Below are positions 2,765-59,847 of a stretch of 64,000 bases of DNA, piece by piece. The position numbers and the translations under genes were made by a program. The stretch spans positions 40,003,671 through 40,067,670 of the forward strand of contig NC_056002.1 of the NCBI RefSeq assembly GCF_018446385.1, read 5' to 3'. Origin of the DNA: Zingiber officinale (Eukaryota; Streptophyta; Magnoliopsida; Zingiberales; Zingiberaceae). Positions within the stretch are counted from its first letter, which is position 1. Every line of letters begins with the position of its first letter. The notes beneath the pieces are model-generated. The model worked only from the letters and a program-made list of their open reading frames with translations, did not search any database and was not told where the DNA came from.

Positions 2765-5541
2765 ATGCCGCCGACCCTAGTTTTTACGGAGGCGGTTGCC
2801 AGCTTCCTATCATGTAAAGCTCGATCTTTACAACACGGAGCTGGGATTTTCCGATCGGCGGGACGACCTAGCGGCCCGGATAGCAGGTTGGGGCGATTCG
2901 ATCAGGCGCGATGTCTGGCTACCTTGGCTCGTTCCGGAAACCCTTGCGTCGGTAGTTCCGCCGACGGCCTCCACGTTCTGCCGATTGGTACTTCCCGTGG
3001 TTTCGCTCAAACTCGACAGTTTCTCGGATTTTTTTTCGGAGAAGATTGTCCTGCTCTTTCAAAGGTCTACAAGGAGCGACGGACCATTGGGTATGAACAG
3101 CTGTTTTCACCTTTTAAATCTGAGTTTTTGTTATCGATCTGCTTGGATTCAATCGAACACCTTCTCTTTCGTGGTTATGATAACTACTATTTCCTCTTCT
3201 ATCGCTCTGTAGCTGATCCTTCTCATATGCTTTCCATGGCTAAATCTGAGTTTTGCATCTAGATCTTTGCCTCTGCATCATTGGAGTTTTATGTCGTCAA
3301 CAATGTTAAATTTTTACATACATGATCTGTTTTGATGCCTAATTATGAACAATCTAAACAGGTACTCTCCTGAACAGTTGTTTAATGTGGTTTCAGCAGT
3401 CGATATGTATGAGGAGTTCTTGCCATGGTGCCAGCGGTCTAGGATTGTCAAGCGGAATAGCGATCGATCATTTGATGCGGAGCTTCAGATTGGTTTTAAG
3501 TCCTTTCTTGAAAGTTATCTTTCTCATGTGGAAATTGACAAGCCAAAACGTATCAAGGTTTGATTCTTTGCTTTCTCTATCTTGTTAACAGACACTTGCT
3601 TTATTTTCAGCAGATAGAATTGTTATGCAGAAGCTTTGGCTTCTCTTAAATTTTAGTGTAGATATTTCTTGTTAAAATTTGAAGAAAACTAATAACATCT
3701 TATGAAACTAAATCTACTCTGTAAGTAGTCATCATACTACTAGTAAGAAAACTAATAACATCTTATGAAACTAAATCTACTCTGTAAGTAGTCATCATAC
3801 TACTAGTAATTTTAATGCCCTCTCAAGTTGGAGATTAGACATTATTGCTGTCTGGTCTATAGTCCAAAAAAATGAAGAATAAGCTCCATCAATGTGGACA
3901 AAATAGACAGCAATAGAAGCACTAAAAAGCACTTCAGATAACATGAAACCAGTAGATTTCTCTATTTGTGTATGTGATGATAGGGCAATAACTGAGCCAT
4001 CTTAGACAACATGAGATCGATCAATTTCTCCACCAGAGTAGGCCAATTGTGTAGTTGTCACTAGAGTAGATTAAGTGGAACGAAATTCGGCAAGGAACCA
4101 ATAATGTCTGGAGAAATTTCTGCACCAAACAATTTTAGATTTAATTGTAGAACTGCTCAAGTTTCAACAGCATTTCATGAAAATAAAAAACAAGAACCTG
4201 TGTCTCTCTTTGTTCTTTTCTATTTGATAACAGCAATATTTAATTGGTAGTATAAGTTTTCTGTAATAATGTTAGATTATTTTGTATGTAAGGTTATGAA
4301 AGGTATTAACTAATTATTCATAAGGTAATAACATTTATAAGGGTTATCATCTTATTAGGTAATATATAGTATGTTTTAATTATTAGTTAATATTAACTTT
4401 ATTACTGATACATAAACAATTATTAACAAATTTGATAATATAGGAAACAAAGTGTTTAATGAATAATATTTATAGTTAATAAAACTCTAAATAGTGACAT
4501 CCTAATTAATTATGAATAATAAAGCAGTAATTTTATATTTGTAGATTATAAAATATATAATTATTAACTGACAATGTAGTTGATTCTATCATAATTTCTC
4601 AATTAGCATTTAATTATAAATAATATTAAAAATAATACTATGATTAATTACATTAGTTATTATAAGCGTTGTTTAATTATTAATAATATCAATCTTTGAT
4701 TTCTTTTATTATTATCTATATGATGAATACAATAGTATTTTATCCGTATGTTATATGTCATAGTTTTTCTTGATCTTTTGTCATTGATTGTTTGGTGGAA
4801 GGTGGATTAAACTTTTATTGGTCGTCTCTTCTTATTTTTTGTTCCTAGTAAAGGCTAATCATTCTAAATTGCTGCGATTTACATTCTTGTAGACCACTGC
4901 TTCAAAAAATGGACTTTTTGAACACTTAATTAACATTTGGGAATTCACTCCTGGTTCAGTTCCTGGAAGTTGTGAACTTTACTTCTTGGTGGATTTCAAG
5001 TTTCATTCGCCACTATATCGACAGGTAAACTTAAATTAGTTTTTGTTTTTAAAAAAGTTCTTCCATTTGATGATATCGGCAAGTTAATTTCTTCACCGCC
5101 TTTAATTCTGTCAGCTAGTTGTAATTCATAAAAGCTTTTGACATTCCTGATGAAAGTGATTGAGATGAATCCATTTGGTTTTTGACTTTTCACTTTAAAG
5201 ACCGAGTAAATTCTTTCCCTTGTTGTTATCTGAAACAAAATCATGTATTCATGTGGGAAAACAATCTTTGATGTAGTTCAGCAATTCAATTTCGACAGTG
5301 TAGGACAGATAAAATAATGTTGTGTATCGTCACAAAAGTTAACTATCTATAACTTGATTTTATTATACTACTGATTAGTTCACAAACCCACCTTACTGAC
5401 ATGATAATTATGTGGCAGGTTGTATCAATGTTCTTTCAGGAAGTGGCCCCTCGTTTACTTTCATCTTTTGAAGATCGCTGCGGCAGAATCTATGGTCCTC
5501 CTGTCCCAGTTCTTGAAACCTCTTACAGACAAAACATATAA
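2765..5541 (+). CDS. COQ10: Coenzyme Q-binding protein COQ10 (START-like), mitochondrial
   Basis: Exons 2765-3090, 3362-3557, 4893-5024 and 5419-5541 join in frame to 258 aa ending at TAA 5539-5541, and every intron is GT-AG. The family binds coenzyme Q in a START/polyketide-cyclase fold on the matrix side of the inner mitochondrial membrane and is needed for efficient respiration. Residues 1 to about 90 are Arg/Ser-rich and poorly conserved, as expected of a targeting presequence. The START-like domain runs from about 95 to 250 with the family blocks YSPEQLF, VPWCQRS-like (here LPWCQRS), FDAELQIGF, INIWEF, PGSVPGSCELYFLVDFKF and YRQVVSMFF. The ATG at 2765 is preferred because upstream in-frame codons start only at a non-ATG, and MPP- starts are common in plant homologues. 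Intron 2 is 1.3 kb, very AT-rich, and carries a 63-bp tandem duplication. The assignment is secure; only the N-terminus is uncertain. Confidence 0.93.
3682..3809. repeat. 63-bp tandem duplication in COQ10 intron 2
   Basis: Two adjacent copies of a 63-bp unit begin at 3682 and 3745 (AAGAAAACTAATAACATC...) and look identical by eye. They lie wholly inside intron 2, so the protein is not affected. The identity suggests a recent slippage or repair duplication. Confidence 0.9.
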
Positions 5542-13882: not shown

Positions 13883-14433
13883 AAGAAACCTCTGGATATC
13901 AATTCCGGCCATCACTCTCCCTAGCTGTTCGTCAACAGGAGAAACCTTGTAGTAGGGTAAGTTGTTGAAAAATCTGATTCTCATTTAGCTTAATCGGAGT
14001 TGATGTTAGTATGGTTAAGGATAGTTAATCATGTAGTTTCGAAACGATTGAGGTTATCTGTTGGATTTGAACCAAGGTTTAGATTAGATCTGATTTGTTA
14101 ATTAACCAAGGTTAATGAATTACGGTTTCTTGGTTTAATAGGAATTTCAATTTAGTTATTGGATATACACGAGAGTGGATTAATTATATGCATGTTGTTA
14201 TAGGACCCTGATTTACAATAAGCCGCTTGACGTAGGATTACTTTAGCACGCGCTATATTTGAGGCGGGTACCTCCGACTTACCTTCTTTTGATATTGTCA
14301 TTATGATATGTATAGTATGTTATAGCTAGTAGTAATTGTTATGTTTATATCTGCTTTGGTATGTCACTACTTGATACATGAGGTATGTCTTTATTTTATC
14401 TGATATGCATTTAGGCCTATATCATCTTGATTC

Positions 14434-16823
14434 TGTTAGAGTGTATACTAAAAGCTTAGCTTTTGGTATAAACATTTATAAGAATCACATTGGTCAAATT
14501 GTCTACATTTAGTTGTAGTTGTTCAATTAATTTATACTGTAGATAACATAGTATGTGGTGTCACATGCAGAAGATGATGTTATCAGTACCTTATAAATTA
14601 TAAACAGTAGCTCACGACCAAAATAGAAAGGAACAAACCATTAGAAGGTCGTAGTGTAATTAGGTATTAGTTTATCTTGACTGTATAATTACACTAGTAC
14701 ACTTAGAGTGTATTGAGTAGGACCATTTGAGGTCGTTTCTTTTATACTGACTTTATAAAGAAACAAAGACCTCGGTTATTATGGAAGTGTGCACTCTTAA
14801 TCCTAATATAATAACAAGCACATATATTTGATATTTATTTCTTTAATTTATCAGTGGGTGAGATTTAGTTCGATGAATCAATAAGCCCGATGAGTTGGGA
14901 AATGATATCACTTATAGTGTGTGTTGTTGATTATAGAAGGAAACTGTGTCCTAGAGATACTAGGTTAATAATGTCCCCAAGAGGAGCTCATAAGGATTGT
15001 CATGTTAAACCCTGCAGGTGGACTTAGTCTGACATGACGATAAGGTTGAGTGGTACTACTTTTGGACTTAGATATTAATTAAATGAGTTGTCAGTAACTT
15101 ACTTAATTAGTGGACATTCGATATCTTAAACACAGGGAGACTAACACACTCATAATAAGAAGAAGCCCAAAAATGTAATTTGGGATTGGTGCAGTAGTTC
15201 AATAATAGTTCTCTAGTGGAATGAATTATTATTGATAAAATTAAGTTGTGTGTTCGGGGCGAACACGGGATGCTTAATTTTATCGGGAGACCAAAACCAA
15301 TTCCTCCTCTCGGTCCCTATCGTAGCCTCTTATATATAGACTACTATACCCACCTATACCCACCAATAGGGGGCCGGCCAGGCTAGCTTGGGAACCAAGC
15401 TAGGGCCGGCCTAGGTATAAGATTGGGTGGCCGGCCCTAGCTTGAACCCAAGTTAGTGGGGGCCGGCCAAATTAAATTAAAAAGGGATTTTAATTTTAAT
15501 TTTTATTATGTGAGAGATATAATTTATTAAAGAGAATTAAAATTAAAATATCTCTCTTGTAAAAGATCTACAAAATATTAAAGAAAGAGATTAGATCTCT
15601 TTCCTTATTTGTAAATTGGTGAGATATTTTATTTTCTCTTTAAAAATTATTCACATGTTGTAAAATTAAAATTATAGAAATTTACTTTTATCAACCATGA
15701 AGAGATTTTGAAGAGAAATTTTATTTTTTAAAATTTCCGGAAACAAATTAGGAAGTTTTAATTGTTGATTGAAACTTATCCAATTTGTTCTTCATTGATG
15801 TGGCCGGCCATAAGATTTCAATTGGGGAAATTTTATTTTATTTTTCTCAATTAAATCATGTTAAGGAAATTGAGGAAATTTTATTGTAATTAAATTTCCT
15901 AATTTGTCTAGGCCAAGGAATATAAAAGAAGGGGTGAGGGTGCCTTCATGGGGACAACCTCTATTATTTCTCTCCCTCTTTTGTTCCTTGGTGTGGCCGG
16001 CCATCCTCTCCCTCTCTTCCTCTTGTGGTGGCCGAACCTCTCTCTCTCCCTTGGAGCTCTTGTGGTGGCCGGATACTACTTGGAGAAGAAGAAGAAGAAG
16101 GAGAGAAAGCTAGCATCTCTTGGAGCTTGGTTAGTGTTTTGATTTTCTTTCTTGGTGAAGCTTCTTCTTTTGTGGCCGAACCTAGCTAGGAGGAGAAGAA
16201 GGTGGTTGGTGGTTTCTTATCTCGGAAGATCGTTGCCCACACAACGTCCGAGGTTAGAAGAGGAATACGGTAGAAGATCAAGAGGTTTTTCTACAAGGTA
16301 TAACTAGTAATTTTTCTTTCCGCATCATACTAGTTATTTATGGAAATAATACTAAATACAAGAGGCTTACGTTCTAGTATTTCGAATATGTTTTTCGAAG
16401 TTGTGTTCTTTTGTTTTATTTTTTTCCTTGTGATTTGATTGTTCTTTTCGGTTAACCTAAAGTTATTTTAGGAAATTAAATATTAGCTTTCTATAAAAGG
16501 TTTTGTCTAGTCGGTGGTGGTTGCTCCCATATCCAAGAAGGTCATGTGCCTCGCCACGTCAGTACTGGGAACCAATTATGGAAATTAATATTTAATGGAA
16601 TTAATAACTTAAGGCGATTTGGGTCGAACGTGTTAAGTTCCGCATGAGACCCAAGTCAAAACCTAAAAGAACGAATAAATTAAGTTTTGGATCAAACGTG
16701 TTAAGTTCCGCAGGCTATCCAAAATTTAATTTAAAAGAACACATGGTAGCTAGGAAAAGGTTCAGACCTTTGTACAAAATTTTGTACAGTGGAACCTCTA
16801 GGTTTTCCGAGTAGCAACCAACA
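14434..16823 (+). repeat. 5' LTR of the Copia element (2390 bp)
   Basis: TGTTAGAGTG...AACCAACA. It holds a cluster of GGCCGGCC octamers near 15371-15470 and others at about 15801 and 15994. Two TATA-like sites are visible (TATATATAGA at 15331 and TATAAAAGAA at 15921), either of which could drive the element transcript. A 12-bp segment near 16777 (AAATTTTGTACA region) is absent from the 3' LTR. The short open frames at 15904-16142 recur at the same place in the other LTR and are not evidence of a gene. Confidence 0.93.
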
Positions 16824-16845
16824 ATTGGTATCAGAGCTAGGGTTT
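16824..16845 (+). other. Primer-binding site, tRNA-Met type
   Basis: TTGGTATCAGAGCTAGGG lies one base after the LTR end. TGGTATCAGAGC is complementary to the 3' end of plant initiator tRNA-Met, the usual primer for Copia elements. Confidence 0.93.
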
Positions 16846-19800
16846 TGCCTCTGTGTATTTGGTATTAGTTTAATTATGCACATGTCATACATAATTTAGG
16901 CAGGATAATAGTAGGATGTGCTAACTTTGTGGATGCAGGATCCAACTATTATGGCTTATAGTTTTATGTGTGTGATTGGATCCTTGGACATGTCAAGGGC
17001 ATTTATATGTGTGTGCATGATTGTATTAAAATACAGCAGGAGCTGTATTTAGTTTTATTAGGATTTTATTTTTGATCTAGATACATGTACATTCCTTTTA
17101 TGGAATATAGGATCGATGGATGTAAATTTTATTTTATGTTCGATCTAGTTTACATGTACATTCCTTCGAGGAATATAGGATCAAAATGTAAAATTCTATT
17201 TATGTCGCGGATCGAATCTTGCAAAGCGTGGAACCTTCTAAGGACCAGAGGCGTAGCGGAACTAGGAGCAAGATGGATGCGACAGCTAGACCCGGTGGCA
17301 GTGGCCAAATATGGCAACAGCTTGGGATGACAACACACGGAGGACAACAAGAGATAAAAGCCATAATAGTTGAAAATTAGATTTTCTATTTATTGCTTTT
17401 ATATTGTGCTGTGTGTGCATGTTAGTTTACATATTTAGTAGGTTAGCATAGTTAAAATTCCTCATTTATAAATAACTAAGTGGGAGAGGATTTTTTAAGT
17501 AAATCCCATGGTCTCCATTACTGGTTTGTAAGTGATGCAAACAAGCTTGCGCGTTGGCTCTGAGTGCCTTCCTCCATAATGGATGAACTTCTTTGTGGAT
17601 CACTAGAACAGACTTCCATTTTTGGATGACTATAGGAAGTTAATTAAGAGCGTGTGATCTTCCCCAACGGAAGGGGCATAATCTTATTAATGGACTTAGT
17701 GTCAAGTAATGGTATACACTTAGATACATTTAATAGTATCCTCCCCAACGGAGTCACTACTATCACTTGTGTGACCAAAGGGAAACCAACTATTGATTTG
17801 TCATAAAACTAGATTGGCAATATAATAAAATTAATAAACCCCTCTTACAAATGTTTGAATTTATATACGTCTACACTAACGTGACATACAAGATTCATGG
17901 TGTTTGAGGTAATTTTATTTGTCAAAAAGTTATATTGACAAGATAGTCAATGGGTAAAACCCTCCTCTTACAAATGATGAATTTGTATACGTCCACACTA
18001 ACGTGGCATGCAAAATTCACGGTGTTTGAGGTGTTGGTGAATTTAAATAATATTGTTTGAGGAATCAATGTTATTTTAAAATTCAAAGAGTTTTGACCAA
18101 ATATTTGATTAAAGACAGATCAACTATTAATTTTATTCATCAAGTTGACGAGATAATAAAATTAATGGATAAAATCTCCTCTTTGATTTTGTATGCGTCT
18201 ACACTATCGTGGCATATAAAATTCATGGGGATTTTAAGGAATTGATCTTGACCAAATATTTTTGTGATTCTTAGGATTTAAAATGTTTGTCAATTCCCTA
18301 GTTGTTATACTATAGAAAAGACTTAGTAGTCTCAATTGTAATGATTGGAAATAGGACTTGGACATTAAGGTAGACTGTCTTCTAAGAACTAAGAACAATT
18401 TAGGTATATTTAATTCATTAGTTGAAACATGTCTAGTGGTGTTATCTACCAGAACCTGGAGTGTAGATACAAGATGCCATTAATCATGTCTGCAATTCAT
18501 TGCAGGGTTCCAGGAAACCCGACAACTAAATGAAAGGTAAATCACCGTCCACATGGGCACTACTGTAAAAGTGGTAGCTGTTGCAGTGGGAGATGTTTAT
18601 CCTTTGATAAGAATAAAATATGGATTTTAAGTAATTGTCTTTACGTACCAAGTTTAGAAAGAACCTGATTTCAGTTTCTAAACTATTATAGATATTATGT
18701 CTATTTTGATAACAAAGTTGTTATCAAGAAAAATAAGAAAGTTATCTATTCTGGTATGATGGTTGACAATTTATAATCCAATAACTCCCACGATGCAACA
18801 AATGGAAATTAGTAACACATCTTCTAATTTTAAGAGAAAGCAACCTTCGGAAATGAACCAATTATATCTTTGGCATCTAAAGCTAGGTTATACATGAGTA
18901 GGATTCATTGGTGGCTGATGAACTTTTGGGTTCATTGGTAGTGGAAATCTTTCCAACCTGCGAGTCTTACTTGGAAGGAAAATAACCAAGAAGCTTTTAA
19001 GTCCAAGGGGTATGGAGTCAAAGATATGTTGAAATCGGTTCATTCTGATTTGTGTGATCCTATGATTATCCAGACAAGAGGTAGTATTGAATATTTTGTC
19101 TATTTTATAGACAACTATTCAAGATACAGATAAATTTACTTAATGTACCGCAAGACTAAGTACTTTGATTAGTTCAAAGAGTACAAGGTTGATGCGGAGA
19201 AATGTTAAAGTAAAAAGTCACTATGGAAGATCGTAGTGGCAAGTACCTCTTGAGAGATTTTAGGAGTCACTTATCAGAAGTTGGATTTCAATCCCAACTA
19301 ACTGCATCTGGTATACCCCAACAGAATGGTGTAGTAGAAAGAAGGTAAAGGACTCTTATGGAATAATTAGATAGATGATGAGTTATTCATAAAATTACCA
19401 AATTTGTTTTAAGGATAAACTCTGAAAACGAAAGTGAACATAGTACCTTCCAAGTTAGAACTCTCTACTCATATAGAATTGATGAATAGGTGAAAACCTA
19501 TTTTGAAGCATATTCGGATTCGGGTAATCCAGCACATATGTTAAAGAGAGACAATGATAAGTTGGATAGGAGTTCACTTGTTTGTAAGTTATCCTAGATA
19601 AACAAAAGTAGGATTATAGTCTTAAAAATCAGAAGGTCATTGTTAGCATCAATGACTGATTTTTAGAAAAGGACTATATAATGAACCACGTGCTCATAAG
19701 TAAATTTGTTCTTAAGGAAATAATAAAGGACATGTCTAACCTAGTACCAACTGTACAAGATGAGATACCACAAGAAAAATGTAACATGTATCACAAATGA

Positions 19801-21420
19801 TACACAATTGCAGAAAGTGTCTTGTCGTAGTGGGAGGGTTGTTAGGCAACCTAAATAGATTCATGTTTTGGGAGAGTTTTTGGATTCGATCCCTAGAGGA
19901 CATGAACCTGATCTCCGGTCATATGATGAAGTACTCCAAGATAAAGATGCAGCATCTTGACAAAGAGTAATGAATAACAGAATTAGAATATATGTATTCT
20001 AATAAAATCTGGAAGCTTGTAGAATCACCAAATGGTGTAAAAGCTGTTAGGTGTAAAAAGGTCTATAATAGGAAAAGAGGGATGGAGAAGGTAGTAACTT
20101 CAAAGCAAGGCTTGATGAAAAGGAAACTTTTCACTGGTAGCCATGCTTAAGTCTATCCGATTCTTTTATCTATTTGGCAAGTGGATGACAAGACAGCGTT
20201 CCTTAATGGAAGTCTTGAAGAAAGCATCCATATAAAGCAACCGAAGGGTTCATTGCAAAGGGCTAAGAGCATCTTGTGTGCAAGCTCAATCGGTCCATGG
20301 ATGGAAAGCTTCAAGGTCTTGGAACATCCGGTTTATCAAAGTAATCCAGATCTATGGATTTAGTAACCGGATAAGTCTTGTGTATACAAAAGGTGTGATG
20401 GAAGCGTGGTGGTATTTCTTGTACTATACGTAGATAACATTTTTGGTAGTTGGAAACAATATCAAAATGTTGTCAGAAGTAAGGGTATGGTTGTCTAAAC
20501 AATTCGATATAAAGGACTTGGGAGAATGTATATATTCTTGAGATCAAAGTAATAAGGGATCGCAAGGAAAGAATATTTTACTTATCCCAAGCTTCATACA
20601 TCGAAAAAATCCTTGCTCTTTTTAAAGCATGCAAAACTCCAAGAAAGGTTTCTTACCTTTTCAGCATGGAGTAACTTTATCTAAAGATATGTCTCTGTAG
20701 ACATCAAAGGAGATAAAGGAAATAAAGGTAGTTCTTTATGCTTCGGCTGTCAGAAGCCTAATGTATGCTATGCACGAGATCATAAATCTGTTTTGCCAAG
20801 GGCATAGTTAGCAGATATCAAAACAAGGATAGTGGACTGCAGTAAAGCATATATTGAAGTACCTTAGAGGCACTAGAGATTATATGCTAGCTTACAAGGC
20901 AGTTAATTTGGTCCTTGTGAGTTACATGGATTTTGACTTCCAATCGGATAGAGACAATAATAAGTCAACCTCGGGGTTTTGTGTTTACTTTAGGAGGTAA
21001 AATCATAACTATGGAAGAGTGATAAGCATAGGTATTTTTCTAGACTCCACCATAGAAGCTTAGTATATGCAAGCCTCTGAGGTAGCCATAAAAGCTGAAT
21101 GACTCAATAACCTCAAGATAGACTTAGATATGATTTCTGATTTGTCCAAAGATTATTACAATTTATTGTAATAATGTTGGTGCAGTAGCAAACTCGAAGA
21201 AACCATAAGTCTATAAGGCAAGTAAACACAATAGAGCGCAAGTACCACCCAATATGAGAAATCGTATAAACGAGGAGAAATTGTTGCCGCCTAGATTGCA
21301 TCAGGTGATGACCTATAGATCCTTTCACTAAGGTCCTTAAGGCAAGAGCTTTTGATGGGCATGTTGAAGGGTTGGGAATCAGATGTATGGCAGCAGATAT
21401 GGCAGCTTAGTCTTTTAGTA
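16846..21420 (+). pseudogene. Decayed Copia gag-pol
   Basis: No long open frame survives. Recognisable pieces in order are: a GAG-pre-integrase-like LWHLKLGY segment near 18870; integrase pieces VHSDLCDP (about 19036), FIDNYSRY (about 19105) and the family mark GIPQQNGVVERR near 19308-19345; reverse transcriptase pieces DDKTAFLNGSLEESIHIKQP (20183) and LYVDN (about 20422), a variant of the YVDD catalytic box; and RNase H pieces SGFCVYFR (about 20970) with nearby stops. Gag itself is not recognisable at 16900-18400. Stops such as VEYFVYF...YR*IY and repeated frame changes make it non-coding. Confidence 0.85.
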
Positions 21421-21421
21421 T

Positions 21422-21432
21422 AAGTGGGAGAT
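21422..21432 (+). other. Polypurine tract of the Copia element
   Basis: AAGTGGGAGAT lies directly before the 3' LTR TG at 21433. This is the usual plus-strand primer position and sequence type for plant Copia elements. Confidence 0.85.
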
Positions 21433-23810
21433 TGTTAGAGTGTATACTAAAAGCCTAGCTTTTGGTATAAACATTTATAAGAATCACATTGGTCAAATTG
21501 TCTACATTTAGTTGTAGTTGTTCAATTAATTTATATTGTAGATAACATAGTATGTGGTGTCACATGCAGAAGATGATGTTATCAGTACCTTATAAATTAT
21601 AAACAGTAGCTCACGACCAAAATAGAAAGGAACAAACCATTAGAAGGTCGTAGTGTAATTAGGTATCAGTTTATCTTGACTGTATAATTACACTAGTACA
21701 CTTAGAGTGTATTGAGTAGGACCATTTGAGGTCGTTTCTTTTATACTGACTTTATAAAGAAACAAAGACCTCGGTTATTATAGAAGTGTGCACTCTTAAT
21801 CCTAATATAATAATAAGCACATATATTTGATATTTATTTCTTTAATTTATCAGTGGGTGAGATTTAGTTCGATAAATCAATAAGCTCGATAAGTTGGGAA
21901 ATGATATCACTTATAGTGTGTGTTGTTGATTATAGAAGGAAACTGTGTCCTAGAGATACTAGGTTGATAATGTCCCCAAGAGGAGCTCATAAGGATTGTC
22001 ATGTTAAACCCTGCAGGTGGACTTAGTCCGATATGACGATAAGGTTGAGTGGTACTACTCTTGGACTTAGATATTAATTAAATGAGTTGTCAGTAACTCA
22101 CTTAATTAGTGGACATTCGATATCTTAAACACAGGGAGACTAACACACTCATAATAAGAAGGAGCCCAAAAATGTAATTTGGGATTGGTGCGGTAGTTCA
22201 ATAATAGTTCTCTAGTGGAATGAATTATTATTGATAAAATTAAGTTGTGTGTTCGGGGCGAACACGAGATGCTTAATTTTATCGGGAGACCAAAACCAAT
22301 TCCTCCTCTCGGTCCCTATCGTAGCCTCTTATATATAGACTACTATACCCACCTATACCCACCAATAGGGGGCCGGCCAAGCTAGCTTGGGAACCAAGCT
22401 AGGGCCGGCCTAGGTATAAGATTGGGTGGCCGGCCCTAGCTTGAACCCAAGCTAGTGGGGGCCGGCCAAATTAAATTAAAAAGGGATTTTAATTTTAATT
22501 TTTATTATGTGGGAGATATAATTTATTAAAGAGAATTAAAATTAAAATATCTCTCTTGTAAAAGATCTACAAAAGATTAAAGAAAGAGATTAGATCTCTT
22601 TCCTTATTTGTAGATTGGTGAGATATTTTATTTTCTCTTTAAAAATTATTCATATGTTGTAAAATTAAAATTATAGAAATTTCCTTTTATCAACCATGAA
22701 GAGATTTTGAAGAGAAATTTTATTTTTTAAAATTTCCGGAAACAAATTAGGAAGTTTTAATTGTTGATTGAAACTTGTCCAATTTGTTCTTCATTGATGT
22801 GGCCGGCCATAAGATTCCAATTGGGGAAATTTTATTTTATTTTTCTCAATTAAATCATGTCAAGGAAATTGAGGAAATATTATTGTAATTAAATTTCCTA
22901 ATTTGCCTAGGCCAAGGAATATAAAAGAAGGGGTGAGGGTGCCTTCATGGGGACAACCTCTATTATTTCTCTCCCTCTTTTGTTCCTTGGTGTGGCCGGC
23001 CATCCTCTCCCTCTCTTCCTCTTGTGGTGGCCGAACCTCTCTCTCTCCCTTGGAGCTCTTGTGGTGGCCGGATACTACTTGGAGAAGAAGAAGAAGAAGG
23101 AGAGAAAGCTAGCATCTCTTGGAGCTTGGTTAGTGTTTTGATTTTCTTCCTTGGTGAAGCTTCTTCTTTTGTGGCCGAACCTAGCTAGGAGGAGAAGAAG
23201 GTGGTTGGTGGTTTCTCATCTCGGAAGATCGTTGCCCACACAACGTCCGAGGTTAGAAGAGGAATACGGTAGAAGATCAAGAGGTTTTTCTACAAGGTAT
23301 AACTAGTAATTTTTCTTTCCGCATCATACTAGTTATTTATGGAAATAATACTAAATACAAGAGGCTTACGTTCTAGTATTTCGAATATGTTTTTCGAAGT
23401 TGTGATCTTTTGTTTTATTTTTTTCCTTGTGATTTGATTGTTCTTTTCGGTTAACCTAAAGTTATTTTAGGAAATTAAATATTAGCTTTCTATAAAAGGT
23501 TTTGTCTAGTCGGTGGTGGTTGCTCCCATATCCAAGAAGGCCATGTACCTCGCCACGTCAGTACTGGGAACCAATTATGGAAATTAATATTTAATGGAAT
23601 TAATAACTTGAGGCGATTTGGGTCGAACGTGTTAAGTTCCGCATGAGACCCAAGTCAAAACCTAAAAGAACGAATAGATTAAGTTTTGGATCAAACGTGT
23701 TAAGTTTCGCAGGCGATCCAAAATTTAATTTAAAAGAACACATGGTAGCTAGGAAAAGGTTCAGACCTTTGTACAGTGGAACCTCTAGGTTTTCCGAGTA
23801 GCAACCAACA
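21433..23810 (+). repeat. 3' LTR of the Copia element (2378 bp)
   Basis: It is collinear with 14434-16823 and followed by the duplication GATTC. It differs by about 1.6% substitutions (hand count) and lacks the 12 bp present near the end of the 5' LTR. Confidence 0.93.
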
Positions 23811-25191
23811 GATTCTTGCCTGTGTACTTATGTTCATAGAAGTAGTGACATACAATGCATTACTGGGTTCAGGACTAGCTACTAGTTATACTTGGCATAT
23901 GTACCTAGACATTATGATACATAGTTTATTGTTATGGATTCATTGTTCTTTTTGGTACATATTAGATGGAGGCGCATGTTGTCAGGTGTCACATGCTTTA
24001 GTGGCATGCACCATCTTGCATGATTGCATGTTGAGTGATTGTCGACTCCTTTGTAGTTGAGCACATCGTCAGTTACATGATCTGCACACACAACCACTCA
24101 TGGGTTAGTGGTACATCAGGCAAGGTGTATGTAGTTGCTCTGTCAGGGCTCCGCTCGGCCGCTCATGGGTAGTGGTGATGCAGCGTGGTAGCGGACAGGG
24201 ATCCCTCCTCTTGACTATGACACAAGGAGATAAGAGCTTCGGCTCCTCCATTTAGTTGGGGTAGGAGGATAGATGTACTCCGACAGCATCCTGTCCATTC
24301 GGTCACTCAAGAGTAGTAATGGCAGAGTGCACAATTGTCATAGCCCTACCCAATCGACCTCATCATCACGATGATGGTGGCAGACTGGCGTCAGGGGTGA
24401 CCATGTCATTTGCACCATATGCATGGATTGCATTTATTTGTGTGTGATTGTTGCATTTTGGTGGTTACATATGATTGACATGTATACATGAGACACTATG
24501 TATTTGGTCTGACGATCCGACATCTGTTTGTATGGTTCTCACCCTTATGTTAATAGGAGATCCTGGTGAGTACAGTTTTCTCCATTGTTCAGTTTTGCAT
24601 TACCGTTTATTGTTCAGGAGACTATAAATGCATGACTATTACTGATAGTTATATTTTACTATGCATGTCTGTTCGATACCCGCTGAGTTCATTAAACTCA
24701 CTCCGTTGATTTATGCCTATTTCAGGTTGAAGCCGTCAGGAGGTTCCAACGGCTAGTCCCCTCTCTATGTCGCGACGATTTCTATGTCTAGTCTTTTGGT
24801 TTCCTTGCTATGTGTCCTACCAACTGGTGATGTGTAGTTTTTACACCCGTAGATTTTTATATCGAGTTTTGGGTATGCTACCCTCGTTTTCCGCTGTGAA
24901 GATTTTCTAGGTAAGTTAGTTTTTTTCCTCATTGTAGTGGAGTAGATATTATATATATCTACGATGTTTTAATACCGTTTCACTTCTTTTCATATTCTGT
25001 TGTCAGTCGGAGGCTGTCTTTATTAAACTACATGGAATGTTTTATTTACTTTATGATATATGTTCGATCGTATTGGTTAAGGATTGTGAGGCCCCAAGGA
25101 CTATATATTTCTGAATTCATATTGTTATCAGTACAAGAAAAATAGTGTCGAATTTTTACTGACTGAAACCCTCTAGAGGTGTGACATGCAA

Positions 25192-36212: not shown

Positions 36213-36332
36213 GTTGACCTCACTTGAACTCAATTTTGATCTTCTCCTCAAGCAGACTTCCTCCTGGCTTCTCTCCCCTCAAACGCTCCGTGCACATCTT
36301 TTTCATCCACTGGTATACTCTTCCATAGTTAT

Positions 36333-37338
36333 TGTTGGAACCCCAAGGTTGTTTTGGTGTGATCAACAAGTTAAGTTAGGTCCCGTGTGTTTTTAACCTT
36401 ATGTCTAAGTGTGTAGGAACTTAGGAGCACAAGTAGTCGAGCGGAAGACGTAACTAGCGAGAAGGACGACACGCGGTGTGTCCGAGGGATGAGGCGCTAT
36501 GGAAGAGTACACCGGTGGACGAGAAGGAAGTGTGCGGTGGTTCCGAGGGATGAGAAGCCGGAGCGGAAGACTGCTCGAGGAGCAAGAGACACAGCTAGCG
36601 AGAAGGTCGACACAGGGTGCGACCGAGGGACGAAGATTGCGGATGAGTGTGCTAGCAGACGAGAAGGAAGCACGCGGTGATTCCGAGAGATGAGAAGTTG
36701 GAGCGGAAACCTGCTCGAGAAGACTGAAAGTTGGGTTCGGGTGAGCCCTATTCCGGATGGCAGAGACCATCCATGCGAGCGAAAGACTCGGTCTGAGGCG
36801 AACGGAGCCGGATCAGAAGACCCCGCTTGAAAAAAGTCAACGGGATTGACTTTCCCAATCGGGGCGCCCGGAACCCTTTCGGGCGCCCGAAACAGTCCGG
36901 GGTGCCCGGAACCCTTTCAGGCACCCGAAGTTGAGTTTTTGACCAGATTGCATCAATCGCGATCTGAACGTTGGGGGATAAAGTTTTATCCCTTCCAGGG
37001 CGCTCGGAACCCCTTCGGGGCGCCCCGACCAAGGCTATAAATACATCCTTAGTTTAGAACCTTTTTCAACAACTTAAGCAATTCATTTCCAACACTTGTG
37101 TGCTTCTTTTAGAGTTTAACTTCTTTCTCTTTGCGCTCTCATTGCTATAAGAGGCTTCTCCGCCTGAAGGAGATATTTTAGTGCGACATCTTCCTTGGAT
37201 TAACAACCTCCCCAGTTGTAACCAAGTAAACTCTGTGTGCCTCGTCTTTTCAGTTTTAATTTATTGTTTTCTTAATTTATGCATGTTTTGTTTACATGCT
37301 ATTCAACCCCCCTTCTAGTCGGTCACTGTGATCCAACA
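36333..37338 (+). repeat. 5' LTR of the gag-only element
   Basis: TGTTGGAACCCC...GATCCAACA. It contains a TATA-like TATAAATA at 37036 and repeated GGGCGCCCGGAACCC-like GC-rich words at 36860-37025 upstream of it, probably the U3 promoter zone. Confidence 0.9.
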
Positions 37339-37353
37339 AGTGGTATCAGAGCC
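37339..37353 (+). other. Primer-binding site of the gag-only element
   Basis: AGTGGTATCAGAGCC directly follows the LTR. TGGTATCAGAGC is the tRNA-Met complement. Confidence 0.92.
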
Positions 37354-37397
37354 AAGGCGCTTCAGGAGGACTAATCGCCGAACGAAGCAACGATATA

Positions 37398-38652
37398 ATG
37401 GCCGGACCAAGCATCTACCCGCCGAAGTTCGAAGGGGAATTCGCTAGTTGGAAAAAGCGAATGCAGGTATTCTTTAAAACTAACTTTGATTTAATGTTAA
37501 TTATGGAGTTCGGTTTTACAGCATCGGAAGGTAAGGAGAAATACCATTGGACGAAAAAGGAGCAGGCCGACTACGTGACAAACGGCAAAGCTGAGTACCA
37601 TCTACTAACCGTTCTTCCGCCATAAGAAGTCAACTGGATCGGCAACTACGACTCCACGAAGGAACTTTGGGAGAAGTTCCTTGAATTGCACGAAGGAACG
37701 TCCGAAGCAAAGCTCGCGAAACGGGATTTACTCTGCAACCAGTTCACCAGCCTGCGACTTGGGGAAGACGAGACAGTTGCACATCTGCACTCAAGGATAA
37801 AGGAAATCATCACCGGACTTTCGAATCGGTAAGTAACCGAGATTCGCTGATGCCTTTTATATTTCAAAAGACTTAGAAAAAATTTCATTAGAAGAATTCT
37901 TTTCTACATTTGAAGTGCACGAATCAAGATGTGCAGGTACAAAGGAGCCCAAGAACAACATCGCCCTCAAAGCATCGAGAGACGAACCTGAGTCGAAGTC
38001 TTCTCTCGACGACGAGGAAATGGTAATGATGGTAAGACAGTTTAATAATCTTTGTAAATCTAGGAAATCTAACCATCCGTAGGGGAAAAAGAAAAGGACC
38101 ATCCGCTGCTACCACTGTGACAAAGAAGGGCATGTTAAGGACAACTGCCCCAAGCTAAAGAACAAGGACAAGGATAAAGGTAAGAAGTCTGTCCAAAAGC
38201 ACAAGACCCTAAAGGCGACGTGGGACGATACGTCGTCCGAATTGGAAGTCGAGGCGTTCTTTGGGTTTCCATTAATGGCGAGTCATCAAGACGACGACTG
38301 CGATTCAAGCTCTTCCGAAATGAGCATCGAGAACATCGATGAAGGGGGAGCTACGTTGGAAGATAGCAGCAGTTCAAGGGGAGACACGGACAACGAGATC
38401 GACAAGGTAAGTCAGGTACGATCTCTTTCTCCTGATAAATTGTTTAAGTTCGTTAAACTGTTAACAAAAGATTGCCACAAGTTAGAAAAAGAAATTAAGA
38501 ATTTCAAAATAATATTAGCTAAATCTTGCCCAATAGGAGAATTCGACAGAATTAAGTTAGAAAATGGAAAATTAAAAGAAGAAAATGATAACTTGAAAAA
38601 CTATGCATGCTCATCTAAAACCAATGTTAAAAAATATAACAATTTAAATTGA
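37398..38652 (+). pseudogene. Retrotransposon gag with CCHC zinc knuckle, broken
   Basis: It starts MAGPSIYPPKFEGEF, followed by WKKRMQVFF and a UBN2-like gag segment (NYDSTKELWEKFLELHEG, LAKRDLLCNQF, LHSRIKEI) typical of Copia gag. A zinc knuckle C-Y-H-C-x4-H-x4-C lies at about 38106-38150, and an acidic/coiled tail runs to the stop at 38650. It is broken by a stop at 37623-37625, a stop with frame change near 37828-37832 and a TAG near 38082. The product would normally form the virus-like particle and package RNA; here it cannot be translated whole. I have not reconstructed it. Confidence 0.85.
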
Positions 38653-39519
38653 TATTTCAGATATTATAAGGGACAAATTAGGAACATTTCAAAAAGATAT
38701 GTCCCTAAGAAATTTTTAGTCAATCCAGTAGGCTGGAACTTATATTGGGTTCCAAAGTTTTGTCTGACTTGAACTTGAACTAAGTAGATTTAGAGTTTTC
38801 AACGAGAAAATTAAACAGTGAGTTTCTTTATGAGGCTTTGTCTAAAGAAGTGGTTGTTGCTCCAATAACCAAGAAGGCCTAGTGCCTCGCCACAACTTGG
38901 AAGCCAAAATATTAAAATAAAATATTTAATTAACTTTTTGATAAAAACATTAAGGTGAAAACTTAATAATGCTTTAAAAAGTCTTTTAAACATTTTTTTA
39001 CTTAGAAATTATTTTTTTTTTTGCGTAAAACTTTTACTTAAAAGTTAAAAGTTGTTCTGAAATTAGGAATTTCTGCTTAAAGTTTTTATTTTAAAAAAAA
39101 TTCCAAAATATTTTTGTAAAATTTCCTAAGTCTTGATTTTTTTAAAAAAATTCTCTTACTTAAAGCTTTACTTAGAAATTTTTTATACTTAAAGTTTTTC
39201 CATAGAAAATTTTTTTACCTAAAGTTTTATTTAGAAATTGTTTAACTTAGAATATTTTTTGCTGAAAATTATTACAAATTCTCTAACTTAGAATTTTTGT
39301 TAAGAAAGTTAGAAATTTTTTTAACCCTCAGATTTTTTTCGGAATCCCATTTTTTTATGTGATCAAAGGAGGAGAAGGAAAAGTATAAGTCTACGGGGAG
39401 GTAGACCAAAATCTAAATTTTCTATCTTTTTGAACTTAATTACAAAATTAGTTAATTTATTTTTATGTCTATTTTTACCTTAGCTTAACTTGGGTTGCTC
39501 ACATCAAAAAGGGGGAGAT
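38653..39519 (+). other. Non-coding tail of the gag-only element
   Basis: This is T- and A-rich sequence with many short repeats of the type CTTAAAGTTTT/CTTAGAAATTTT (38930-39330), ending in the purine tract. No domain of pol is visible. The same kind of tail recurs at 61900-62930. Confidence 0.75.
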
Positions 39520-40539
39520 TGTTGGAACCCCAATGTTGTTTTGGTGTGATCAACAAGTTAAGTTAGGTCCTGTGTGTTTTTAACCTTATGTCTAAGTGTG
39601 TAGGAGCTTAGGAGCACAGGTAGTCGAGCGGAAAACGTAACTAGCGAGAAGGACGACACGCGGTGTGTCCGATGGACGAGGCGCTACGGAAGAGTACACC
39701 GGTGGACGAGAAGGAAGTGTGCGATGGTTCCGAGGGATGAGAAGCCAGAGCGGAAGACTGCTCGAGGAGCAAGAGACGCAGCTAGCGAGAAGGTCGGCAC
39801 GGGGTGCGACCGAGGAACGAAGACTGCGGATGAGTACGCTGGCAGACGAGAAGGAAGCACGCGGCGATTCCGAGGGAACAGAAGTTAGAGCGGAAGCCTG
39901 CTCGAGAAGACTGAAAGTTGGGTTCGGGTGAGCCCTATTCCGGATGGCAGGGATCACCCAAGCGAGTGGAAAACTCGGTCTGAGGCGAACGGAGCCGGAG
40001 CAAAAGACCCGAGCTGAAAAAGTCAACAGGGTTGACTTTCCCAGCGAGGGCGCCTGGAACTGTCCGGGGCGCCCGGAACCCTTCCAACCGCCAGGAGTTG
40101 ACTTTTTGATCAGATCACGTCAATCGCGATCTGAACATTGGGGGATAAAATTTTATCCCCCCACGGCGCCCGGAACCCCTTCGGGGCGCCCGACCAAGGC
40201 TATAAATATAGCCTTGGTCCAAAAGCTTTTTCAACAACTCAAGCAATTCATTTCCAACACTTGTGTGCTTCTTTTAGAGTTTAACTTCTTCCTTTTTGCG
40301 CTCTCATTGTTGTAAGAGGTTTCTCCGCCTGAAGGAGATATTCTAGTGCGATATCTTCCTTGGATTAACAATCTCCCCGATTGTAACCAAGTAAATCTCT
40401 ATGTGCCTCGTCGTTTCAGTTTTAATTTATTGCTTTCTTAATTTATGCAAGTGTTCTGTTGAAAGATCGAGAAAGGTTTTTCTGTTTTGTTTATAGGTTA
40501 TTCTCAACCCCCCTTTTAGCCGGCCACCGCGATCCAACA
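39520..40539 (+). repeat. 3' LTR of the gag-only element
   Basis: It is collinear with 36333-37338, has a TATA-like TATAAATATA at 40201, and is followed by the duplication GTTAT. Confidence 0.9.
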
Positions 40540-57188: not shown

Positions 57189-59261
57189 TTACACAGATAG
57201 TAGCTGCTTTAGGTGAAGCAAATGTTCTTCATTGCTTATGTTGAGCGAGAGACGTAGATTTGTTACAAGTGTCTCCTGCTCCCAGCTTAAAGGACCGGAC
57301 GCATGTAAAGCTCGCAGAGTGGATCGATATGCACGTAGCTCTAACATATGGACGCTGGCAGCTAACTTGTCTTTAAAGATTGTTTCATGCTCTCTCTCGC
57401 CTTCATTTGGGCTAGAAGGCATGACATTAGTAGATTTTCCAGAAGCATTCCTAGAATGCCTTCCTGCACCCCCGAAACAACTTTCTTCGGTTTCGTTACT
57501 ACTACAGCTAGCAACAGAGCATTCATCGGTCTCTTCAGCAACTCCCATAGGTATTCTAAATAAAGGTGTGGCATGCTCGTCCAGGAAGATCTTATCAGCT
57601 TGTAACCCAGTCTTCACAGTTCTTCTAGTTTTACCGGACTTGAGCATGCAATTTTCAAGATTTGAAACTTTAGAGAAAGTAACAACATCAATTTTTCTAG
57701 GCGAAGTTCGTCTGCCTTCCATGCTCACCTTCCTTTTCTTGCCAGTACCTATTATCTCAGGATCACAAGCCGCGATGCAGTGGAGTCTGAGGTCCCTCTC
57801 TAAAGTTGTCGGAGGCATGGGGCAAAGCTGCCTTTTGTCAAATTTATGCCCGTTGTAAGCTTCTGGGTGTTTTGTGTTGAACTTCTGTATAATGCAAGCT
57901 TCTTGGTGAATTCCATCTTCAACTTTTTCTGTGTGCTTGGAGTTAGAAGGCATCAAACCGCAATGAAAATGCTTCCCATTTTCGACCTGGAAATGACTTT
58001 CTATTAATCAACAGAATCGAATTAAATTTGACAAGCAATGGATATTTGATGTTGTACAAGAAGTAAAGAAGGAAACAGGTCTTTTGAACATCAAATTCAA
58101 TTGTGATTTCTCTTTCGCTATCTCTCTCAACACACAGTGCTCTTTGCTATCATAAGCTATTTTTTTCTAAGAAATTGATAATCTACACTAGCATACAAAC
58201 ATTAGAACACAACTACGGAACCAATGAAAGAAAGGCTATTTGTTCGAAAAGGCTATTCATGCAAAACAATGATAAAATCGAACACGATGCAATTAAACCA
58301 ATGTGTAACAAACAGATTGAGCTTAGTTAACTCATCAGTTATGCTCGGAGCCAATTCTGAATTTAAATTGGCATCGATCAAAGCTTGAATTTAGCACAAA
58401 TATATGTTATTTGTTTCTCAAAGTAATGTAGATTGTATTTGCCATGAAGATGAATGAAGTTGAAATTCAACAATTACCGATCACAGCTCGATCATTATTC
58501 CTTTCAGTTAGACAACATAAATAATCCTTCGATCAATCAGGATCTGATATGAGGTTACATAAACTCCCACCTAAAGATTTAGGAAAATCGAGTCTTGCTA
58601 GTGACAGTTATTGCTAATGCACACTGTGATAATACATATGCATACGATATGTCAAGTAAAAGAGATTAGTATGCCCTTTCTCATCTAGATGAAAAAAAAT
58701 GCAACCAGTAAGCCATACAGAAAGAACACACAAATAATGAAATACAAGTGTGATTGATTGTCAATCTATTCAAATGGTATCTGAATGAAAAATTGCATAA
58801 TCTACTTGGAGGATGACCAATATTATGTCATATAGGTATAACCAAAATTCTACCTTATTGACCCAATGGTTGGTCTGCCAAGCTTGCGGAACCCTTACAT
58901 CATATAGCAGAAATCTTTTAAGCTGGATAGAGCCAAAGATTTTGGCGACGACATATCCTTTCTTGAGGATCTTAGCAATCTTCGCTACCTTCCAAGAATG
59001 TGTATCAAGCACCTCAACAATGTCACCAACAGTCCAATCTTGCTTGTGAGGAACAAGAGGTGGGGAGGGCCTAACATCTTTATCATCCACTGTCTCCGCA
59101 ATGGGCTTTCCTTGAGGTTTTACGAATAATTTATAACTCACAGAATATTTATTAACAAGAACCGATGATATTATTGCTGGAAACCAAGAGACATTCAGTT
59201 CCTCGTTTCTCCTTAAGACCTCCACCTCGTCTCCTGGTTTGAACTCCATGGCCTTGCTCAT
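57189..59261 (-). CDS. Agenet (Tudor-like) and ENT domain protein
   Basis: Minus exons 59261-58854 and 57986-57189 join in frame to 401 aa (GTAGAA donor, TTTCCAG acceptor). Residues 5-70 (FKPGDEVEVL...SWFPAIISS) and 73-128 (WTVGDIVEVLD...WKVAKIAKIL, RVPQAW) are a tandem Agenet pair, a plant Tudor-like fold that reads modified chromatin. The middle (137-330) is basic and Ser-rich with GKKRKV, a likely nuclear signal. Residues 340-401 (LELRAYRSTLRALHASGPLSWEQETLVTNLR...) are an ENT domain, the EMSY N-terminal helical dimerisation module. A nuclear chromatin-binding role is inferred. The order Agenet then ENT is opposite to EMSY-like proteins. ATG 59261 comes nine bases after an acceptor-like GTTTAG, so a leader intron is likely. 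Confidence 0.88.
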
Positions 59262-59847
59262 AATTTCATCCTAAACCTGCTTGATTCATAAAATTGATCA
59301 ACACACATAACAAAAACGAGATGAAAAGGCAAAATAACAACATTTTGATCTCAACATATTATAGTTAAATCATTTAGCCAGATTAAGTGAACCCAAAGAA
59401 TTTTTCAGCAAATGATAACATGATGGTCTATAGCTTGAAATCCTAGTTTTCCTACTTAAGATGCCCAATAATGAAGATTTACCTACAGACAGACAGTTGA
59501 TGATGCATGAAACTAATGCAAAAGCACAAAAATTAACCTTGAAACGGAAGTTCCAAAGATCCAAATCTAAGCAATAGAGGAGTGTGAACATATAACTAAA
59601 ATCAAGTAGAAGAAAAGTCCAAACATTGGCCAAGATATAAGCTAGAATCAAACGAAGAACACTGAATTTCTCTAAATCAAAGAAGGAAGCACAGAAGCGG
59701 CACAAAAATGTACAAAATCATCATCCCCGACAAACGCAAACCATCAAAAAAAACAAACTTTAAGAGACCCCAAACTAATAATAGTTCAAGTTTATCCGTT
59801 TATCGAAGAAATCACATTAGAACAGCAATTTTTCTGCCAGAACATAC

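Follow-up and report, generated by a model that had tools for sequence, protein, structure and literature searches.

We analyzed a 64,000-nt stretch of the ginger (Zingiber officinale) genome (contig NC_056002.1, positions 40,003,671 to 40,067,670; here called the window and numbered from its first letter). It holds a 9377-bp retrotransposon of the Ty1/Copia type, framed by two long terminal repeats (LTRs) (Table 1). A preliminary description, made from the letters of the window, had taken this element for a recently inserted copy that was already defective when it moved and that was mobilized by the proteins of another element. Our comparisons with sister copies, with autonomous relatives, and with intact reference proteins point to the same explanation and suggest in addition that the LTR was exchanged with the helper.

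Young LTRs around a decayed coding region

The element has the features of Ty1/Copia LTR elements: TG...CA ends (TGTTAG...CCAACA), a 5-bp target-site duplication with GATTC on both sides, a primer binding site (PBS), and a polypurine tract (PPT). The LTRs differ by 37 substitutions at 2378 aligned sites (1.56%; 32 transitions and 5 transversions) and by a single gap of 12 nt, which gives a Kimura two-parameter distance (K2P, or K) of 0.0158. The hand count in the preliminary description (about 37 substitutions in 2.38 kb, about 1.6%, mostly transitions) was exact, and the duplication is intact, as it had stated. By the LTR clock, the last insertion of the window copy lies at 0.008 per copy.

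Table 1. Features of the Copia element in the window
Feature	Positions	Strand	Remark
Target-site duplication GATTC, left	14429..14433	.	
5' LTR, 2390 nt	14434..16823	+	
LTR middle, autonomous type	15334..16233	+	K 0.09-0.11 to two autonomous elements; 3' LTR counterpart from ~22333
Primer binding site TGGTATCAGAGC, intact	16826..16837	+	Starts two bases past the 5' LTR
Untranslated leader	16838..17790	+	K 0.02-0.06 to the autonomous family
Leader RNA element, AAGTGGGAGA plus hairpin	17478..17516	+	
Diverged repeats, ~120 nt	17793..18238	+	Units from near 17793 and 17914; a third, partial, near 18184
Probable remnant of gag start	18249..18366	+	~680 nt net of gag missing relative to L057
Dead pol (any remaining gag end, protease, integrase, RT, RNase H)	18367..21407	+	22 stops and 36 frameshifts over 1015 codons relative to L051
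Inverted repeat around polypurine tract	21412..21453	+	Arms 21412-21422 and 21443-21453
Polypurine tract AAGTGGGAGAT, intact	21422..21432	+	Directly before the 3' LTR
3' LTR, 2378 nt	21433..23810	+	
Target-site duplication GATTC, right	23811..23815	.	

As the first intact references for pol we used L008, L011, L012, and L001, which came from contigs of prokaryote genomes (20 records retrieved by one scan with the Copia reverse transcriptase, or RT, motif); the open pieces measure 1344 aa in L008, 1328 aa in L011, and 602 aa in L012. Copia-like pol was present in 13 of these 20 bacterial and archaeal records (L001, L003 to L008, L011, L012, L015 to L017, and L019) and is probably eukaryotic contamination. 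In frame-aware alignments with the four references that cover pol (L008, L011, and the autonomous ginger copies L051 and L052, described below), the window element has 21 or 22 stops and 34 to 36 frameshifts over 991 to 1016 codons. The partial L012 gave 10 stops and 19 frameshifts over 536 codons, and the distant, partial L001 gave 15 and 21 over 718 codons. Control alignments of intact with intact proteins gave 0 stops and 0 frameshifts in all four cases, and five autonomous loci of the ginger genome had 0 or 1 stops and 0 to 3 frameshifts. The number of stops expected at the LTR age is 0.72, given that about 0.03 of the substitutions in such frames lead to a stop under the LTR spectrum. The preliminary description, which had proposed this alignment, judged the decay of integrase, RT, and RNase H to be far beyond what 1.6% would give; with some 22 stops and 35 frameshifts per roughly 1,000 codons, against about 0.7 stops expected, that judgment was sound.

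The element is left without a usable gag or pol frame, and the longest plus-strand stop-to-stop piece of the internal region (84 aa) is located in the leader. When 30 reading-frame pieces were compared with Pfam, three pieces of pol matched RVT_2 in order, with scores short of the curated cut-off (E 4e-4 to 5e-3), the integrase piece matched rve_3 only weakly (E 0.16), and the other matches looked like chance. The order of the pol domains was taken from the alignment, and their names in the window element are in part presumed. The whole of pol is collinear with the intact frames found by the Copia RT motif, with integrase before RT as in Copia-type elements.

Gag has probably been cut down to a short start fragment, with most of it missing. 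The preliminary description mentions neither this loss nor the good preservation of the leader upstream. Positions 18268-18366 align with residues 5 to 39 of L011 (4 of 500 shuffles were as good); L008 gave 8 of 500 and L001 no support (354 of 500). At the DNA level, 18249-18277 is a 90% match to the autonomous copy L057 at the start of the open gag-pol piece of that copy (position 4238, with the first ATG codon at 4271), and the next match comes after another 761 nt in L057 and after 83 nt in the window. In a search of the full leader region, the L011 gag again matched best at the start remnant (1 of 100 shuffles did as well), and the best match of the L008 gag lay elsewhere and was not significant (16 of 100). 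For the L001 gag the best match (0 of 100), at 17925-18054, falls within the repeat zone and is at odds with the start remnant.

Mismatches between the window and L051 are nearly flat across the three codon positions (0.171, 0.153, and 0.253 for first, second, and third); between L052 and L051 they are 0.012, 0.012, and 0.052. Restricted to residues conserved across three intact proteins, second positions give a distance of 0.15 for the window (control L012, 0.026), and the density of the 22 stops corresponds to about 0.25 substitutions per site. The proteins would have died roughly 0.15 to 0.25 substitutions per site ago, more than ten-fold earlier than the last insertion.

Sister copies carry the same lesions

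We searched the ginger genome (3.09 Gb, 211 contigs) with a 601-nt stretch of the dead RT. Of 40 scored matches, one (100%) was the window and the remaining 39 had 95 to 97% identity; the 20 best-ranked of these 39 were fetched as sisters. The larger numbers of first-look candidates (5208 for the dead RT and 181302 for the L012 protein) are not copy counts. Depending on whether the needed ends were present, 10 of the 20 sisters entered the comparison of internal distances, 14 the comparison of 5' LTR and leader (11 of which reach into the 5' LTR), and 13 the counts of stops and frameshifts; the clock based on private substitutions used 14.

The stops were largely shared. We took the 22 stop sites from the alignment with L011; the set differs slightly in the alignment with L051. 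At 20 of them, a stop is also present in 75% or more of the sisters that could be read there, and stops occupy 362 of 408 copy-by-site cells overall. The remaining two are nearly private to the window copy: 1 of 19 sisters has a stop at one of them and 2 of 17 at the other. Two such stops agree with the expectation of 0.72 (the chance of at least two is 0.16). Each of the 13 sisters in which both ends of the internal region are present has 17 to 24 stops and 31 to 39 frameshifts. The preliminary description had looked to such a search for sisters with the same stops as the sign that a dead lineage amplifies, and for intact sisters with lesions private to this copy as the opposite outcome; the genome holds the former. 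One stretch of pol, 20080-20310, has differences and length changes private to the window copy (9 to 13 substitutions and usually 12 gap columns relative to 17 sisters) and is probably a small mosaic patch.

Four complete sisters have perfect target duplications of their own (ATGAG, ACCTC, GGTTC, and TCGAG). In a fifth, which meets the end of its stretch, the duplication agrees for the three readable letters. The LTR K2P in these five lies between 0.0123 and 0.0210. Judged by these duplications and LTRs, the sisters are separate, recent insertions of one dead lineage. Because they sit at different target duplications and have young LTRs, a lineage that was already dead kept amplifying, and lesions common to independently inserted young copies agree with the earlier view that the window copy was defective when it moved.

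LTR and leader resemble an autonomous family

Searching the same genome with the L012 protein gave 73 scored matches at 77 to 79%, some with stop-free reading frames of up to 1330 aa. The autonomous copies compared were eight 3' parts (L049 to L056) and two 5' parts (L057 and L058). Two autonomous LTR pairs differ at 10 of 1454 (0.7%) and 32 of 1154 (2.8%) sites, so the ages of dead and autonomous copies overlap.

The distance between the window and the autonomous copies varies along the element: K2P is 0.18 to 0.27 in pol, 0.12 in the repeat zone after 17790, 0.02 to 0.06 in the leader up to 17790, and 0.02 to 0.11 in the LTR. The shift in divergence occurs once at the passage from leader to pol, at the site of the missing gag, and a second time some 50 nt ahead of the LTR. 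This comparison of the window with other copies excluded L032 and L037 (shortened in pol) and L045 (without a PPT), and three copies that were kept (L029, L031, and L038, shortened upstream) inflate the dead-copy values in 18420-19700. In the leader, dead and autonomous copies differ by 0.03 to 0.06, little above the sole autonomous pair compared (0.02 to 0.05).

In the LTR middle, ten dead sisters of another LTR type are separated from the window by K 0.34 to 0.36, and they lie 0.30 to 0.39 from both the window and the autonomous copies; the internal regions of the ten sisters compared are only 0.023 to 0.036 from that of the window. At 22333-22900, in the 3' LTR, 15 of 17 sisters are 0.36 to 0.43 from the window, and L035 and L036 share its LTR type. 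The pol tree separates 18 dead from 8 autonomous copies (support 1.000, branch 0.198), and the LTR tree is discordant with it. In the tree of the first 900 nt of the LTR, the window adjoins the autonomous clade (0.970). In the LTR-middle tree it joins the autonomous L049 and L054 (0.776; 0.962 for the L049-L054 pair), with L035 added to this group (0.860), and L036 joins L053 (0.834); the remaining 15 dead copies are split off by a branch of 0.48 (support 1.000) from a group made up of the autonomous copies, the window, L035, and L036.

Signals retained in cis

The PBS is exact in 13 of the 14 sisters where it was found and in both autonomous 5' parts. We take TGGTATCAGAGC to fit the initiator methionine tRNA. 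Of the 19 sisters in which a PPT was found, 18 have it exact, as do seven of the eight autonomous 3' parts. The leader element also occurs in L008, L011, and the two autonomous 5' parts, and it is nearly unchanged across dead and autonomous copies, with single-base variants in several; by its inferred function it is a candidate packaging or dimerization signal. It forms the clearest leader likeness between the window and the two distant families (L008 and L011, at about 733; E 3e-4 and 3e-5). The sequence of its stem varies and the pairing is kept, with fold z-scores of only about -1. The copies of the leader repeats are about 75 to 89% alike within their best-matched 55 nt.

We compared the arms flanking the PPT in the six elements with a recognizable PPT (window, L005, L008, L011, L012, and L015). 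The arms are complementary in all six despite differing sequences, each arm pairs best with its own partner, and no other of 720 arm swaps matched the observed sum. Taken singly, L008 and L011 were weak (40 and 30 of 1000 shuffles as good). The minimum-energy fold contains the PPT stem in two of the six elements and lacks it in the window; the L012 stretch ended inside an arm. We considered the PPT hairpin as a possibly new feature and dropped this, since such a hairpin is already reported for Sire and HIV.

Other sequences in the window and among viral contigs

A second, older, and smaller Copia-like element occupies 36331-40460, with LTR-like repeats that are 89% alike, a PBS at 37341, a PPT-like AAGGGGGAGA at 39509, and a single frame that holds a zinc knuckle. 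On the minus strand, at 57189-59270, pieces with ENT and Agenet domains probably belong to a host gene. At 3682-3809 there is a perfect tandem duplication of 65 nt with a 2-nt overlap. Among viral contigs, no relative was confirmed by protein, by the Copia RT motif, or by the PPT-LTR junction.

Probable mobilization in trans and its alternatives

We favor, with a probability of roughly 0.93, the reading that the window holds a young copy of a non-autonomous Copia lineage with shared old lesions, amplified in trans by autonomous relatives, with its LTR exchanged with the helper. A dead lineage that multiplies needs proteins from elsewhere; we infer mobilization in trans from the sequences, and the proteins probably come from the autonomous family with which the dead lineage has its LTR type, leader, and PPT region in common. 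Pol was broken long before the window copy inserted, most of gag is missing, and the dead lineage kept inserting at separate sites while retaining the LTR ends, PBS, leader element, and PPT. Gag, RT, and integrase would be supplied in trans by the autonomous family and would package, copy, and integrate the dead RNA. Template switching between co-packaged RNAs would exchange LTR and leader sequence and may have given some dead copies, that of the window included, the LTR type of the helper. Such an exchange is the simplest way to explain the mosaic, with constraint on cis sequences as a contributing factor.

A tentative extension, which we hold possible rather than probable, is that one dead internal cassette was given the helper LTR repeatedly, by exchanges located within the leader and near the PPT. 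It derives from the LTR-middle groupings of the window, L035, and L036, with their moderate supports (0.776, 0.860, and 0.834), and from a break of L036's own inside the LTR middle. If this is true, a gene-less lineage keeps pace with its helper by capturing promoters.

Several points weigh against the favored reading. The evidence for it is DNA sequence. The 20 sisters are the copies most similar in RT, not a random sample of the family. L036 is of the window's LTR type only in 15334-15933; at 15934-16083 it is 0.33 to 0.44 from the window, the autonomous copies, and the other dead copies alike, and it departs from all of them up to 16233. In pol, the cluster of private differences and length changes at 20080-20310 is not predicted by the LTR clock, and the ratio of frameshifts to substitutions seems higher than one would expect from the one gap between the LTRs. 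Finally, the low divergence of leader and LTR could in part reflect constraint instead of exchange.

Carried further, this last point becomes the alternative that the likeness of dead and autonomous copies in LTR and leader is selective conservation throughout. The leader element, PBS, and PPT do look constrained. The LTR middle, however, is free to differ, as the values of 0.30 to 0.39 in other dead copies attest, yet the window, L035, and part of L036 are of the autonomous type there. The leader, too, differs between dead and autonomous copies little more than within the autonomous pair, and we regard conservation alone as unlikely. It is also rather improbable that a Copia family other than the one named here supplied the proteins. 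The link between the proteins and the dead RNA is indirect, and trans use across families is possible, but the named family is matched in the LTR ends, in the leader element, in the PPT region, and in the LTR middle, and the insertion ages overlap.

An old insertion with LTRs homogenized by gene conversion, the alternative named in the preliminary description, would also leave an old pol between young LTRs. Such conversion cannot rejuvenate the internal region, so a match between internal and LTR clocks speaks against it. We counted a substitution as private if, at its site, 90% or more of those of the 14 sisters that could be read agreed with one another. Pol has 28 of 3172 and the leader 13 of 1307, in total 41 of 4479 (0.92%), compared with 0.79% derived from the LTRs (binomial P = 0.35). 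This second clock agrees with the recent insertion that the preliminary description had read from the LTRs. The LTR substitutions are not patchy but evenly distributed (Kolmogorov-Smirnov P = 0.42; variance-to-mean ratio, 0.50), the lesions are common to the sisters, and the PBS, PPT, and duplication are intact; the chance that all 33 nt are intact at a divergence of 0.15 is about 0.005. Conversion fails on these grounds and is very improbable. The same low standing goes to a spread of the sisters as DNA by segmental duplication: the high RT identity of the 39 other scored matches would fit it, but the target duplications of four sisters and the window differ (the comparison covered the duplications themselves), and the LTRs within each of five sisters have diverged by 1.2 to 2.1%. 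That the lesions arose at or after the window insertion, by error-prone copying or assembly errors, would suit the two nearly private stops and the cluster of private length differences, but it has next to no probability with 20 of 22 stop sites common to most readable sisters elsewhere in the genome.

The element is a dated case, in which protein death (about 0.15 to 0.25 substitutions per site) and the last jump (0.008 per copy) were measured by separate clocks and the likely helper is located in the same genome as the dead lineage. Young LTRs do not amount to an active element, and the LTR type can track the helper instead of the internal region. The pairing of a dead lineage with its helper lets one ask which cis signals the helper requires.

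Relation to known systems

SNARE and SARE (2010) reportedly belong among the close systems. Non-autonomous Copia elements are mobilized in Arabidopsis ddm1 plants (PMC8704663). In Onsen (PMC5668417), old members re-enter transposition through recombination among family members, as we propose for LTR and leader here; that recombination was seen in new Arabidopsis progeny copies, whereas the window case is inferred from old sequence. Barley BARE2 cannot make Gag and is packaged in the particles of its intact relative BARE1 (PMC3735527). BARE2 loses the start of gag through an 8-bp deletion, whereas in the window lineage pol is dead too, and a BARE2-type element, with gag lost and pol kept, is excluded because the pol of the window is not open. 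Packaging has been demonstrated for BARE2 (PMC3735527), while our knowledge of the window lineage comes entirely from its sequence.

The arrangement described here is already known, and its closest precedent is the non-autonomous RLC_Angela of wheat (PMC9744471), which has the same arrangement as the window lineage. Both are full-size Copia elements with a degenerate coding sequence full of frameshifts and stops, amplified beside intact partners, and in both the LTR tree is unlike the internal tree; LTR transfer between sub-populations was proposed for wheat (PMC9744471). The likeness is one of arrangement. The ginger case differs in its genome, in a gag that is largely missing, and in one dead internal lineage that carries at least two LTR types. 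With RLC_Angela-type elements the window lineage has in common the absence of usable frames, the shared lesions, an intact partner with related LTRs, and discordant trees.

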